Below are positions 15,172-27,024 of a stretch of 64,000 nucleotides of DNA, one piece after another. Position 1 is the stretch's first letter, and each line of letters opens with the position of its first letter. Position numbers and translations under genes: made by a program. Below the pieces are notes generated by a model, which saw only the letters and a program-made list of their open reading frames with translations, was not told the DNA's origin and made no database searches. Origin of the DNA: Pigmentiphaga sp. NML080357 (lineage in GTDB: Bacteria > Pseudomonadota > Gammaproteobacteria > Burkholderiales > Burkholderiaceae_B); the NCBI RefSeq assembly GCF_002188465.1, contig NZ_NINW01000049.1, positions 558,001 to 622,000 of the forward strand, read 5' to 3'.

Positions 15172-16332
15172 ATGAAGAAGTGGTTGGGTGGGTCGTTGGG
15201 GGCGATGGTGGTCAACATGTTGGCCAGCAGCGCTGCACTTGCCGTCAATGACAGTGTCGGCGGCCCGAAAGTCAATCAGCTCAATCTGCACGAGCCGGTC
15301 ACCAGCATCGCGGCGCAGATCGAATGGCTGCACTGGATGATGCTGGGCATTTGCCTGGTCATCTTCATCGGCGTGTTCGCGGTGATGTTCTATTCCATCT
15401 GGGCACACCGCAAGTCCCGGGGCGTCAAACCCGCCTCCTTCCACGAGAGCATAGGCGTCGAAGTCGCCTGGACCGTCATCCCGTTCCTGATCGTCATCGG
15501 CATGGCGCTGCCGGCCACCAAGACCGTGGTCGCGATGAAGGACACCTCCAACGCCGACCTCACCGTCAAGGCAACCGGCTACCAGTGGAAATGGGGTTAC
15601 GACTACCTCAACGGCGAGGGCGAGGGCATTTCCTTCCTGTCCAACCTGTCCACCCCCATGGCCCAGCGCACCGGCGCCGAGCCCAAGGGCGACAACTACC
15701 TGATCGAGGTCGACAATCCCCTGGTCGTGCCGGTCAACAAGAAGGTCCGCGTCATCACTACCGCCAATGACGTCATCCATGCCTGGATGGTGCCGGCCTT
15801 CGGCGTGAAGCAGGACGCCATCCCCGGTTTCGTGCGCGATACCTGGTTCCGGGCCGAGAAAATCGGCGAATTCCGCGGCCAGTGCGCCGAGCTTTGTGGC
15901 AAGGACCACGCCTTCATGCCCATCGTGGTGAAGGTGGTGTCCGAAGAAGACTATAGTAAGTGGGTCGAAGAACAGAAGGCCAAGATGGCCGCGCTCGCCG
16001 ACGATCCCAACAAGACCTGGACGGCCGACGAGCTCAAGACCCGCGGCGAAAAGGTGTTCGCGTCCAATTGCGTGGCCTGTCATCAGGCCAACGGCAAGGG
16101 CGTGCCGGGCACCTTCCCCGCGCTGGACGCCGACCCGACCGTACTGGGCCCCAAGGACAAGCAGATCGAGACCGTGCTCAAGGGCCGCCCAGGCACCGCC
16201 ATGGCCTCGTTCGCGCACCTGTCCGACGTGGAGATCGCCGCTGTCATCACCTACACCCGCCATGCCTGGAGCAATGCGGGCAAGGGCCAGGATCCCGTCG
16301 TGCAGCCGGCCGACGTGAAATCCGCCCGCTAG
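15172..16332 (+). CDS. ctaC: Cytochrome c oxidase subunit II with C-terminal cytochrome c domain
   Basis: A 386-residue subunit II of an aa3-type oxidase. It has a signal peptide, two membrane helices (about 50-75 and 95-115) and a cupredoxin domain with the CuA ligands in CAELCGKDHAFM plus the upstream His of HAWMVP. Unlike mitochondrial subunit II it carries a fused cytochrome c domain near residues 285-370, with haem motif CVACH and a probable distal Met in TAMASFAH; this is the caa3-like form common in Burkholderiales. It accepts electrons from cytochrome c. The start at 15172 gives the signal peptide directly; an earlier frame start at 15091 would add unrelated residues. Confidence 0.95.
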   Translation: MKKWLGGSLGAMVVNMLASSAALAVNDSVGGPKVNQLNLHEPVTSIAAQIEWLHWMMLGICLVIFIGVFAVMFYSIWAHRKSRGVKPASFHESIGVEVAWTVIPFLIVIGMALPATKTVVAMKDTSNADLTVKATGYQWKWGYDYLNGEGEGISFLSNLSTPMAQRTGAEPKGDNYLIEVDNPLVVPVNKKVRVITTANDVIHAWMVPAFGVKQDAIPGFVRDTWFRAEKIGEFRGQCAELCGKDHAFMPIVVKVVSEEDYSKWVEEQKAKMAALADDPNKTWTADELKTRGEKVFASNCVACHQANGKGVPGTFPALDADPTVLGPKDKQIETVLKGRPGTAMASFAHLSDVEIAAVITYTRHAWSNAGKGQDPVVQPADVKSAR

Positions 16333-23917: not shown

Positions 23918-24520
23918 ATGACTGCCGATTTTCGCGTTTCCCGCCGTTTCGTCCTGCGCAGCGGGGCCGCCGCGATCGCAGCGGCCTTGCTCGCCGCCTG
24001 CGGAAAGAAGCCGTCGTTCAACAGCACCGACGTGAGCGGATCGGATCTCGGAACGGATCTGTCGTTGACCGACTTCAACGGCAACCCCCGGACCCTGCAG
24101 GACTTCAAGGGCAAGGTGCTGGTGGTGTTCTTCGGCTTCGTGCAGTGCCCCGACGTTTGCCCGACGGCCCTGGCCGAGTTCAAGCAGGTGAAGAACCAGC
24201 TCGGCCAGGACGGCGAGCGGCTGCAGGTGGTGTTCGTCACGGTCGACCCCGAGCGGGATACGCCGGAAATCCTGCGTGAGTACGTCACCCAGTTCGATCC
24301 CAGCTTCCTCGGCTTGCGCGGCGATGCCGACGCGACCGCCCGCGTGGCCAAGTCGTTCAAGGTGTTCTATGCCAAGGTGCCCGGCAAGGAACCCGGTTCC
24401 TACACCGTGGACCATACCGCCGGCGTCTACATCTACGACCCCGAAGGCCACCTGCGCCTCTTCGCCCGCCACAACACCGGCGCCGAAGCCCTGACCAGCG
24501 ACATCCGGCAGCTGCTGTAG
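23918..24520 (+). CDS. SCO1/SenC copper chaperone, lipoprotein with a twin-arginine signal
   Basis: A 200-residue SCO protein for CuA assembly of subunit II. The copper site is complete: CPDVC (CxxxC) near residue 75 and the His of VDHTAGVYIYDP. The N-terminus reads SRRFVLRSGAAAIAAALLAAC: a twin-arginine pair followed by a lipobox, so it is probably exported by Tat as a lipoprotein. The gene ends the cta biogenesis operon (61 bases after ctaB) and is followed directly by GC-rich repeats. Confidence 0.92.
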   Translation: MTADFRVSRRFVLRSGAAAIAAALLAACGKKPSFNSTDVSGSDLGTDLSLTDFNGNPRTLQDFKGKVLVVFFGFVQCPDVCPTALAEFKQVKNQLGQDGERLQVVFVTVDPERDTPEILREYVTQFDPSFLGLRGDADATARVAKSFKVFYAKVPGKEPGSYTVDHTAGVYIYDPEGHLRLFARHNTGAEALTSDIRQLL

Positions 24521-24800
24521 GGGGGGAAGTCCACCCCCTTGCGGCCTTCGGCCGCTCCCCCTCAAGGGGGCGGCCCTAGCGGACCGGAAGGGAAGTCCAC
24601 CCCACGGGGCCTGTGGCCCCGCCCCTCAAGGGGCATCCGACTCCGCCGGTCCCTTCGGCTTGCTGCCAATGTGGCAAAAAGACGCCGCCCCTCGCCAGCC
24701 TGGTTGTACCCCAGGGCACAGCGGATCCGGCTTTGCCGGTCCGCCAGTGCCGCCCCCTTGAGGGGGACGCGCGAAGCGCGGAGGGGGTGGGCTTTCTCCC
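24521..24800. repeat. Composite GC-rich palindromic repeat block
   Basis: About 280 bases without a gene. 24534-24572 is an inverted block (CCCCCTTG / CGGCCTTCGGCCG / CAAGGGGG) that recurs in reverse at 37948-37987. 24721-24756 holds a stem-loop, GCGGATCCGGC-TTT-GCCGGTCCGC, followed by CAGTGCCGCCCC; the same 36 bases recur at 48364-48399 and, reversed, at 45902-45937. More weakly palindromic CCCCTCAAGGGG units lie between. No open frame here looks coding. Confidence 0.75.
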
Positions 24801-24802
24801 AT

Positions 24803-24831
24803 AAAAAAACGGGACACCGTGAGGTGTCCCG
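24803..24831 (-). terminator. Stand-alone terminator on the minus strand
   Basis: CGGGACACC (24810-24818) pairs perfectly with GGTGTCCCG (24823-24831) around a GTGA loop; the A run at 24803-24809 is a U tract on the minus strand. No protein gene on that strand ends here, and the rpoH transcript is already terminated at 25097-25129, so it probably ends a separate short RNA. Confidence 0.75.
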
Positions 24832-24950
24832 TCAACATATCCGCCTCAAGTGGGGGGGAGGGAGGAGAAAAGCAGAGGCGGACGTATCGGCTGGTACCGG
24901 CAAACTGCGCCGGAAGAAACGTCGAAGCGGGGGGAAGCCCGACGTTCCGA
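24803..24950 (-). ncRNA. Candidate small RNA with two C-rich hairpin loops
   Basis: Reading the minus strand from about 24950 down to 24803: a hairpin with a 7-base perfect stem AACGTCG/CGACGTT (24918-24924 with 24940-24946) presents a loop with six consecutive C; a second hairpin with an 8-base perfect stem (24840-24847 with 24875-24882) presents a long loop containing CUCCUCCCUCCCCCCC; then comes the terminator. Loops of this type can pair with Shine-Dalgarno sequences. The layout resembles anti-Shine-Dalgarno RNAs with exposed C-rich loops known in other proteobacteria. The 5' end and promoter were not identified. A 130-codon open frame on this strand has no coding character. Confidence 0.5.
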
Positions 24951-25087
24951 CGCGCAAGGCGTTGCACCCACGCGCGTCCCACCTGATGGTTAGGTTCCAT
25001 TAAGCTCCAGAAGTTCACGCGCTACCCGTGGTTTCACGTAAATTTCCGCCAGATGCGTAACGAAACGTGACGATTGCCAGGTGCCCG

Positions 25088-25129
25088 AAAACAAAAGGCG
25101 GTTTCCGGGAGATTTTCCCGGAAACCGCC
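25088..25129 (-). terminator. Terminator of rpoH
   Basis: A 14-base perfect stem (25097-25110 with 25116-25129) around a 5-base loop, followed on the minus strand by a U-rich tract (A-rich AAAACAAAA at 25088-25096 on the plus strand). It lies 29 bases past the rpoH stop. Confidence 0.85.
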
Positions 25130-25157
25130 CTGCGACGGTAGAGCGCAACGCTGGGGA

Positions 25158-26069
25158 TCAGGCGTACTCGGCCAGTGCGCCACGCATCTTGGTCATGGCG
25201 CGCGCCTCGATCTGGCGGATGCGTTCCGCGGAGACGCCGAATTCGTCGGCCAGTTCCTGCAGCGTGGCGCCACCTTCGTCCTTCAGCCAGCGCGCCTCGA
25301 TGATGCGGCGCGAGCGGTCGTCCAGGCTTTCCAGGGCGTGTTGCAGCCCGTGGCCATGGAGTTCGTCGCGACGGCGTTCTTCCAGGATGGAGCTCGGCTC
25401 GTGCTGGCCTTCGTCCGATAGATAGGCGATGGGCGCAAACTCGGTCTCGCCGTCGTCGGTGCGTCCTTCGAGGGCCATGTCCTGGCCCGAGAGCCGGACT
25501 TCCATTTCCGTCACGTCTTGCGGACGCACGTTCAGGCTGGCGGCGATTTCCTCCACCTGCTCGGGCGTGAGCGCATGGCTGTCCGGTTTGAGGCTGCGCA
25601 GGTTGAAGAACAGCTTGCGCTGGGCCTTGGTGGTGGCCACCTTGACCAGGCGCCAGTTCTTCAGGATGTATTCGTGGATTTCGGCCTTCACCCAGTGGAT
25701 GGCGAACGAAACCAGCCTTACGCCGCGGTTGGGGTCGAAGCGCTTGACGGCCTTCATCAGGCCGACGTTGCCTTCCTGGATCAGGTCCGCATGCGGCAGG
25801 CCGTAGCCCAGGTACTGCCGGGCGATGGCGACCACCAGGCGCAGGTGCGACAACACCAGCTCGCGGGCGGCGTTCAGGTCCTGCTTTTCTTGATAGCGCT
25901 GGGCCAGCTCGTGTTCCTGCTCGGCGGTGAGCACGGGCAGGCGGTTGACGGCGCCGATATAGGCTTCGATCGTGCCAAGCGCGCCAGGGTTGGCAATGGC
26001 AAGTGCCAGCGCGCCGGGGCCGCTTGTGGCGGGAACTAGGGCGTTGGACTGATTCGACGAACGTTTCAT
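25158..26069 (-). CDS. rpoH: RNA polymerase sigma factor RpoH (sigma-32)
   Basis: A 303-residue heat-shock sigma factor. Visible are region 2 (LVLSHLRLVVAIARQYLGYGLPHADLIQEGNVGL, here described in part, and FDPNRGVRLVSFAIHWVKAEI), the RpoH box (QRKLFFNLRSLK) that separates it from RpoD, and region 4 (LQELADEFGVSAERIRQIEARA). The ATG at 26069 is preceded on the minus strand by GGAGGTAAG and gives the normal length; a longer open frame upstream runs through the CIRCE element and is not used. It directs transcription of chaperone and protease genes. A perfect CIRCE upstream points to additional control by HrcA. Confidence 0.95.
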   Translation of the reverse strand: MKRSSNQSNALVPATSGPGALALAIANPGALGTIEAYIGAVNRLPVLTAEQEHELAQRYQEKQDLNAARELVLSHLRLVVAIARQYLGYGLPHADLIQEGNVGLMKAVKRFDPNRGVRLVSFAIHWVKAEIHEYILKNWRLVKVATTKAQRKLFFNLRSLKPDSHALTPEQVEEIAASLNVRPQDVTEMEVRLSGQDMALEGRTDDGETEFAPIAYLSDEGQHEPSSILEERRRDELHGHGLQHALESLDDRSRRIIEARWLKDEGGATLQELADEFGVSAERIRQIEARAMTKMRGALAEYA

Positions 26070-26095
26070 AAACGGCTTACCTCCATGCAAGAAGG

Positions 26096-26122
26096 TTAGC
26101 ACTCCGGGGCAAAGAGTGCTAA
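26096..26122 (-). promoter_or_regulatory. CIRCE element (HrcA operator) upstream of rpoH
   Basis: TTAGCACTC-N9-GAGTGCTAA, an exact match to the CIRCE consensus with the correct 9-base spacer, centred about 40 bases upstream of the rpoH ATG. HrcA binds CIRCE and represses heat-shock genes until heat removes it. Promoter hexamers of rpoH could not be fixed with confidence. Confidence 0.88.
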
Positions 26123-26312
26123 TCGGTCTTTTTGATGACGTCGATAGAACAAGCTGATGGCTGTGCAGTGCAGCAAGGAAGCGCACCCGCGTCCGCAAAT
26201 ACTTCTATCGTGCCGGCGGGCGGGGCGGAGCGACGCAATCAGGGTCTCATGCTGCATAGACCATGAAATCGGCGTATCGTTCGCGGAAATCAGCAACTTC
26301 CGTACCTTCGGC

Positions 26313-26333
26313 ATTGGTGCGTCCCTAATTAAT
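26313..26333 (+). repeat. Left copy of a repeat flanking the RAYT-like gene
   Basis: TGGTGCGTCCCTAATTAAT ends immediately before the ATG of the RAYT-like gene. A near copy, TGGTGCGTCCCTTATTTAAT, lies just after the gene at 27044-27063. Such flanking sequences may be what remains of the gene's mobilisation. Confidence 0.55.
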
Positions 26334-26334
26334 C

Positions 26335-27024
26335 ATGGCTCGTCTTCCCCGCTTGTACGCCCCGGACCTTCCGCATCTCGCCCAGGCCCGGTTCACCGTT
26401 CCCTTGTCGGCGGGCGGCGAGGGCGGCGCCATGCTGGACCAGGTCGCATCCTGGGCGGTAGCCGACGCAAAGCAGTACGGAGTCGCCGTCCACGGATGGA
26501 CGCTTACTTTCGACCAGTTGCTGCTGCTGGCTACCCCGGCGGGGCCCAATGGCATTTCCAGCCTGGTCCAGTCGCTGGGCCGCCGGCTGGCCGCGCGTCT
26601 GCATATCGGCCGGGTGTTCGCGGGCAGGTTCCGCTCCACGCTGGTGGAGCCCGGCGCATGGGTCCTGCCCAGCCTGATCTGGCTGGAGACGGCGCCGCTG
26701 CGCCAGGGGTTGGCGGCGGATGCCGAACTCTGGCGCTGGTCGTCGGCCGCCGCCCACATGGGTGCGGCGCCGGGCGGCTCGCTGCAGGACCACGCCGACT
26801 ACTGGGCTTGCGGCAATACGCCGTTCGATCGCCAGGCCAATTATCGCGCGATGGTGCTGGAAGGGCTGCCCGCGGCCACGTCGGCACGCATCGAACAGGC
26901 ATTGCATGGCCAATGGGCGCTGGGCGGGCCGGCTTTCGTGCAGGGCCTGGAAGCGACCAGCAGCCGCCGACCTGCCGCCGCCAAGCGCGGCCGGCCGCGC
27001 AAGACGCCGGCCGCGGCCGAATAG
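26335..27024 (+). CDS. RAYT (REP-associated transposase)-like protein lacking catalytic residues
   Basis: A 229-residue protein that follows the Y1/REP-associated transposase pattern: opening MARLPRLYAPDLPHLAQARF, a later RVFAGRFRSTLVEPG and WLETAPLRQGLAADAELWRWSSAAAHMG (corresponds to the usual ENPVRAGLV-WSSYRAH region). The catalytic elements are gone: the HUH motif (MPNHVHLL) is LTFDQLLL (residues 57-64), and the nucleophilic Tyr after RR is Leu85. A C-terminal AT-hook-like KRGRPRK remains. The frame is intact, so it is either a decayed but unbroken relic or a domesticated DNA-binding protein. Similar MARLPRL-type proteins are, as I recall, common in betaproteobacteria and are annotated as transposases. 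Confidence 0.72.
   Translation: MARLPRLYAPDLPHLAQARFTVPLSAGGEGGAMLDQVASWAVADAKQYGVAVHGWTLTFDQLLLLATPAGPNGISSLVQSLGRRLAARLHIGRVFAGRFRSTLVEPGAWVLPSLIWLETAPLRQGLAADAELWRWSSAAAHMGAAPGGSLQDHADYWACGNTPFDRQANYRAMVLEGLPAATSARIEQALHGQWALGGPAFVQGLEATSSRRPAAAKRGRPRKTPAAAE

Follow-up and report, generated by a model that had tools for sequence, protein, structure and literature searches.

In the window, the whole 64,000-nucleotide stretch of Pigmentiphaga sp. NML080357 DNA analysed here, the minus strand at 24803-24981 looks like a genuine, independent small regulatory RNA gene beside rpoH, and its predicted product is very probably the ortholog of CT_521 of Bordetella pertussis. The structure of this RNA, the exposure of its loops, its covariation, the conservation of its promoter and its synteny are established computationally. 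We consider it highly likely that this CT_521 ortholog, ~171-180 nt long in Pigmentiphaga, is transcribed by an ECF sigma factor, assisted by Hfq and active in trans as a broad anti-Shine-Dalgarno repressor. An earlier note on this DNA had the core idea right, but the kind of RNA that it described has already been published.

Layout and folding of the minus-strand locus

The predicted full transcript (24803..24981, minus strand) is ~179 nt long, its start being placed ~8 nt after a CTAA element. We put the 5' end at ~24981 because a conserved promoter-like element (25016-24990) sits upstream, and with that 5' end the hairpin at 24978-24949 (hairpin A, 24949..24978) belongs to the predicted transcript. 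Four minus-strand elements follow: hairpin B (24916..24948), with an 8-nt loop holding CCCCCC; a small hairpin C without a C-rich loop (24897..24913); the core hairpin (24833..24889), whose 27-nt loop (24848-24874) contains the putative anti-Shine-Dalgarno seed UCUCCUCCCUCCCCCCC; and an intrinsic terminator (24803..24832), with a 10-11-bp stem at 24832-24809 and seven T at 24809-24803. The second C-rich hairpin of the locus has a long CUCCUCCCUCCCCCCC loop and precedes the terminator. The earlier note had drawn the RNA at 24803..24950; its 5' end probably falls ~30 nt short and leaves out hairpin A.

Folding supports the architecture of two minus-strand hairpins with C-rich loops and a terminator. 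The stretch 24950-24800 folds at -64.2 kcal/mol against a shuffled mean of -41.1 (s.d. 3.3; z = -7.0), a value matched by 0 of 200 dinucleotide shuffles, and the 178-nt version of the RNA gives z = -6.1. Both C-rich motifs, that of hairpin B and that of the core, are predicted to be unpaired, with mean probabilities of 0.86-1.00 across 11 Pigmentiphaga sequences. Duplexes with a Shine-Dalgarno string, or with the ribosome site of the locus's own rpoH, came to -8.1 to -15.0 kcal/mol, compared with 0.2 to -1.5 kcal/mol for a non-Shine-Dalgarno string; these values only restate the complementarity between the RNA and Shine-Dalgarno sequences.

No protein gene appears to use the sRNA terminator, as the earlier note had proposed. 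The upstream neighbour rpoH (sigma-32; 25158..26069, minus strand, ATG at 26069) scored 408 bits against TIGR02392 (cut-off 323) with a protein query that carried one extra residue ahead of the true start, and it has a terminator-like hairpin of its own, with a 16-pair stem, at 25095..25131 on the minus strand, apart from that of the sRNA. The convergent neighbour, a SCO1/SenC family gene (23918..24520; PF02630, 157 bits), lies on the plus strand. The interval 24520-24790, from the SCO1/SenC gene to the sRNA terminator, holds repeated GC-rich palindromic blocks of the CCCCCTTGAGGGGG type, spotted by eye and perhaps REP-like elements. On the far side of rpoH, a perfect operator, TTAGCACTC-N9-GAGTGCTAA, which we take to be CIRCE by name and consensus, occupies 26096-26122 (minus strand), 26 nt ahead of the rpoH ATG, and suggests HrcA control of rpoH. 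Of 80 loci, 76 had a CIRCE-like site ahead of rpoH; such sites have been described for betaproteobacterial rpoH.

Conservation and synteny

Close relatives retain the hairpins. A DNA search recovered the locus in 10 of the 11 Pigmentiphaga genomes with E values of at most 1.3e-29, and in the eleventh, carrying a divergent copy (G001), at E 0.0455 only; the covariance model R1 found the RNA in all 11, scoring the divergent copy at 50.8 bits. To cover the wider family, a pattern scan with one genome per species returned 98 stretches with 99 matches. The pattern fixed TTCTCCTC, CCCYCCC and GARRCRGRT, so these letters are conserved by construction, whereas the promoter, the 5' stem arm, the terminator and the rpoH synteny were free of it. 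Titles of the 98 stretches named Alcaligenaceae genera or carried generic Alcaligenaceae, Burkholderiaceae or Burkholderiales labels. From its named members we infer that the 43-genus family concerned is the Alcaligenaceae, to which we take each named genus, Pigmentiphaga included, to belong.

Alignment A1 and model R1 were built from the first 80 of the 98 stretches. A1 comprises 31 sequences plus the window, after removal of one stretch lacking a T run (L121), 14 repeated or identical sequences and 35 near-duplicates at 93%. Across these 32 sequences, 97.2% of core cells are paired and both sides have changed in 13 of 18 pairs; core covariation reached 0.406, compared with 0.203 when shuffled and at most 0.113 when slid. 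Covariation thus backs the core hairpin and the terminator, and the core hairpin, with covariation in its stem, forms the core of the family. Both a plus-strand 154-aa frame and a minus-strand 130-aa frame stay open across the region, but close relatives differ in length by 1-2 nt, which, together with the compensatory pair changes, fits an RNA, and we give practically no credence to a short encoded protein.

The other C-loop hairpin has a narrower distribution. The two hairpins had been presented as one design; the core hairpin is indeed the family core, and the first is a Pigmentiphaga feature outside that core. In five named Pigmentiphaga loci the core starts 122-123 nt after CTAA, compared with 52-70 nt elsewhere, and the added part holds hairpin B in 11 of 11 genomes, with its run of 5-7 C kept on stems of differing sequence. 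Hairpin B may be a second anti-Shine-Dalgarno loop.

The position beside rpoH, singled out in the earlier note as perhaps no accident, is conserved: 86 of 91 testable matches have a co-oriented rpoH 110-369 nt upstream, a count that leaves out eight matches with no rpoH and at most 437 nt of upstream sequence, a limit set after seeing the data. The five exceptions are both matches of L070 (1.0 and 4.8 kb after rpoH), L072, L109 and L141. Within Pigmentiphaga, rpoH is found within 1.5 kb of the sRNA in 9 of 11 genomes. L070 (Achromobacter pulmonis ANB-1; by position, G172 contig C25) has two rpoH-side sRNA copies 3.7 kb apart, identical over the printed stretch, neither with the usual -35.

Such regular placement on the rpoH strand is also what a terminator region would show, and the structure could simply back up termination of rpoH or form its 3' UTR, with no independent role. 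Of 65 loci in a crude scan, just 27 had a terminator-like hairpin separating rpoH from the sRNA promoter, so that elsewhere rpoH read-through may contribute to sRNA levels, and in a genome of another family (L248) a similar C-rich hairpin follows the aligned end of rpoH by 26 nt. In the window, however, rpoH has its own terminator and a conserved promoter-like element lies in between, and elsewhere the sRNA persists with such an element in the few genomes where no upstream rpoH was found (L008/L141, L012, L072 and L109). The CU-rich loop, needless for termination, is kept across genera, although the search pattern partly fixed it. CT_521 itself has its own promoter, and deletion of its -10 alters the levels of some targets (PMC12235514, in the passages at hand), which makes the terminator reading unlikely. 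We judge that reading very improbable, and the case of a terminator simply ending rpoH read-through does not apply at this locus.

Outside its own family the RNA is weakly represented. At E <=0.001, R1 matched 180 of 268 family genomes in 36 of 43 genera, a few of them weakly. Its 27 matches among 399 genomes of the order sample comprised 11 in the same family and 16 elsewhere at 29-40 bits; of these 16, only L248 has rpoH alongside, 14 show none in the fetched stretch, and the stretch for the remaining one, L259, reached just 151 nt upstream. A scan of 40 rpoH 3' regions (39 from other families and one own-family genome without an R1 match) gave a qualifying C/U run in two, compared with 69 of 71 in the positive control. 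Because out-of-family matches are weak and such C/U runs rare, the rpoH-linked RNA is mainly a trait of this family.

Among the exceptions, L248 (G478, family f19) has a C/U-rich hairpin with the stem CCGCCTC...GAGGCGG 26 nt after the aligned rpoH end, apparently forming the 3' end of rpoH; at that place two further genomes from the same family have no qualifying C/U run. Six further weak out-of-family matches (L246, L247, L251, L256, L258 and L259) show CUCCUC-like loops before terminators, had no Rfam match at the gathering threshold and are possibly unrelated anti-Shine-Dalgarno RNAs.

The promoter-like element and its candidate sigma factor

Upstream of the predicted start, a -35-like GAACTT (25011..25016, minus strand) and a -10-like CTAA (24990..24993, minus strand; context CCTAACC) form a predicted ECF/sigma-E-type promoter. 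The motif [G/A]AACT[T/A]-N17-C[T/C]AA was present in 90 of 96 matches with at least 150 nt upstream, three matches with less being left out, and the GAACTT-type -35, of the sigma-E (ECF02) kind, thus stands at a fixed distance in these 90. Other spacings between 10 and 25 yielded two loci at 21, one at 22 and no more, and shuffled controls matched in 4 of 4,800 cases. The element is kept at L072, L109 and L008/L141, where no rpoH was found upstream; the sequence is AAACTT-N16-TCAAA at L012, where an upstream rpoH was likewise not found, and in the divergent Pigmentiphaga copy of G001.

As a yardstick for the sigma-E (ECF02) consensus we used the rpoH sites of these same loci. Upstream of rpoH, [G/A]AACT[T/C/A]-N16-TCNRA occurred in 46 of 80 loci (eight of 88 were left out because their rpoH start fell outside the locus or no more than 150 nt from its edge), with TCGAA in 34 of the 46; in the first 66 loci, spacings of 12-21 other than 16 gave three matches, all at 17. 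The -35, the spacing and G.C.AA are common to the sRNA and rpoH promoters; the differences lie in letters one and three of TCNNA. At the sRNA the -10 is mostly G[A/C]CTAA, with G at position 21 in 77 of 90 sites and A or C at position 22 in all 90; set against TCNNA, the spacing is equivalent and C, A and A are kept, and the first T is missing in every one of the 90.

That missing T weakens the assignment. Since none of the 90 sites has the initial T of TCNNA at position 22, another ECF sigma factor is possible, and the same sRNA might instead be driven by such a factor, or by a housekeeping sigma factor with an activator, its likeness to the rpoH promoter being partial: the rpoH sites of the same loci carry TCGAA in 34 of 46 cases. 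Yet the two promoters have the same -35, an equivalent spacing and G.C.AA in the -10, the divergent G001 copy has TCAAA, and a simple sigma-70 scan of 24400-26400 returned no housekeeping promoter. We regard a driver other than sigma-E as a serious possibility, though the less likely one.

Our preferred reading is an ECF promoter from which sigma-E (RpoE/SigE), the likeliest factor, would begin transcription at ~24981. The conserved element points to possible induction of the sRNA by a cell-envelope stress factor. In vitro, SigE of Bordetella bronchiseptica transcribes fam, the rpoH homologue of that species, from a promoter similar to the sigma-E consensus (PMC3490749, in the part at hand).

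Several scans were negative. GAACTT-N17-CTRA was not enriched in the Pigmentiphaga sp. NML080357 genome (4 sites versus 8 for the reversed control), and an earlier count of the promoter motif there gave 1 versus 4; the counts yield no regulon because they do not exceed the reversed control. No sigma-E-like site was seen upstream of rpoH in the three Pigmentiphaga loci scanned, nor a similar promoter within 900 nt of rpoE in 10 Pigmentiphaga genomes. In open-licence PMC, among the matches listed, no report of sigma-E control of CT_521 was found; the rseA mutant blot in PMC12235514 is reported for CT_532, and CT_521 is unmentioned there in the passages at hand.

Kinship with known RNAs and meaning for the Alcaligenaceae

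As described in the available passages of PMC12235514, CT_521 is a ~120-nt, Hfq-dependent RNA encoded between bp3747 and rpoH (bp3748), whose C/T-rich seed pairs with Shine-Dalgarno-like motifs in vivo. Outside the classical species it is well conserved in its 3' part and terminator only. Its levels fall without Hfq and rise when RNase III or RNase E is mutated, and RIL-seq in B. pertussis joined it to 22 partners with a Shine-Dalgarno-like target motif; together with CT_433 (S17) it accounts for >73% of sRNA-mRNA chimeras (PMC12235514). In a promoter mutant lacking 12 bp of the -10 region, bp0572 and bp0913 transcripts increased, tcfA decreased both as transcript and as secreted protein, and the amounts of PT and FHA were unchanged (PMC12235514). 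Because tcfA fell and PT and FHA amounts did not change, not all CT_521 effects are simple repression.

The Pigmentiphaga RNA matches CT_521 in several respects. Both follow rpoH directly on its strand, with a C/T-rich stretch immediately before an intrinsic terminator, and CT_521 has its own promoter (PMC12235514), as predicted for the Pigmentiphaga RNA. With the start set 8 nt after CTAA, predicted lengths were 118-123 nt in ten Bordetella loci, near the ~120 nt published for CT_521 (PMC12235514), and 171-180 nt in 11 Pigmentiphaga genomes (175-180 nt in six named loci). By prediction, then, the Pigmentiphaga RNA is ~50-60 nt longer than CT_521, with an extra hairpin carrying a run of 5-7 C, and its core loop carries UCUCCUCCCUCCCCCCC, in place of types such as CUUCUCCUCUUUCCCCUCCCC in other genera. 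Orthology with CT_521 rests on synteny, architecture and other Bordetella, since B. pertussis is outside the 98 named loci. The proposal of an independent sRNA with exposed anti-Shine-Dalgarno loops gains support from this ortholog, which is expressed and pairs with Shine-Dalgarno-like motifs (PMC12235514, same passages).

By extension, Hfq would stabilise the Pigmentiphaga RNA, and the C/U-rich loop of its core hairpin would pair with purine-rich Shine-Dalgarno regions of many mRNAs, the second C-rich loop perhaps pairing too. Such pairing would lower the translation and stability of target mRNAs. Sigma-E control, translational repression in Pigmentiphaga and the role of hairpin B are thus proposals drawn from the conserved features and the published ortholog.

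S17 (CT_433) of B. pertussis is similar in being Hfq-dependent, with a C/U-rich anti-Shine-Dalgarno seed before its terminator and many targets; it differs in its locus (bp3151-bp3152), its sigma-A promoter, its processing by RNase E to ~70 nt and its apparent bvg control (PMC11722255, in the passages at hand).

Kinship with RF02278, the betaproteobacterial Rfam family named for toxicity on overexpression, had also been hinted at, and is not supported. Membership was rejected: at the gathering threshold the whole window gave tRNA only, and 24500-25180 had no RF02278 match at E <=10. In those 681 bases the same relaxed search listed Pseudomon-groES, ylbH and ar14, all far under their gathering scores (ar14: 13.7 bits against 58.8). 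The design is admittedly the same, with a C/U-rich unpaired stretch, hairpins and a terminator, and S17/CT_433 has been likened to RF02278 (PMC11722255, same passages). Against this, the rpoH-side copy of another Pigmentiphaga genome (G010) reached only 26.2 bits (cut-off 50), and true members, two tandem RF02278 genes of 70.2 bits each, sit 535 nt apart elsewhere in the Pigmentiphaga sp. NML080357 genome (contig C14:15579-15641 and 16114-16176). That the locus is one of these toxic double-hairpin RNAs is, in our view, extremely unlikely. Two close RF02278 copies occur in eight other Pigmentiphaga genomes, one in G001 and none over the cut-off in G010. It is plausible that the locus RNA works like that family. 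RF02278, ncS27 and the double-hairpin RNAs of Burkholderia cenocepacia (PMC5688073) likewise expose CU-rich stretches complementary to ribosome-binding sites. The RF02278 model is unmatched at the rpoH-side locus, its tandem genes lying on contig C14.

Further afield, CcsR and ar14 are stress-induced alphaproteobacterial sRNAs with C-rich loops. They resemble the locus RNA in their anti-Shine-Dalgarno loops and stress control, although the ar14 model is a poor match here. MicA and RybB, the sigma-E sRNAs of enterobacteria, use Hfq and repress by pairing, with seeds near the 5' end and porin mRNAs as targets. Proposed sigma-E control, Hfq and repression by pairing would be common ground with the locus RNA, which has an anti-Shine-Dalgarno loop instead of a 5' seed. 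MicA is discussed in PMC12235514, in the passages at hand.

New here are the transcript start, probably at ~24981, the family range of R1, the rpoH synteny, the fixed-spacing promoter and the Pigmentiphaga C-loop hairpin. They extend a hub sRNA, recently reported from Bordetella, into an RNA family that is supported by structure and spans the bacterial family, without an Rfam match here and set apart from RF02278. The sigma-E-type promoter supplies a testable hypothesis of control that the passages of PMC12235514 at hand leave unmentioned; if it is right, envelope stress in Bordetella, Achromobacter and their relatives would act through this sRNA.

More broadly, we propose, as an idea whose chances fall somewhat short of even, that across the Alcaligenaceae sigma-E couples envelope stress to broad translational repression through an rpoH-side anti-Shine-Dalgarno hub RNA. 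If so, one stress sigma factor would raise chaperone capacity through rpoH and lower the load of new protein through the sRNA at a single locus, and in many members the neighbouring rpoH would itself answer to sigma-E-type and HrcA-type control. CT_521, which is one of the two principal riboregulatory hubs in B. pertussis, would then be a functional counterpart of MicA and RybB with a different targeting principle, and Pigmentiphaga would carry a two-loop version of this hub RNA.
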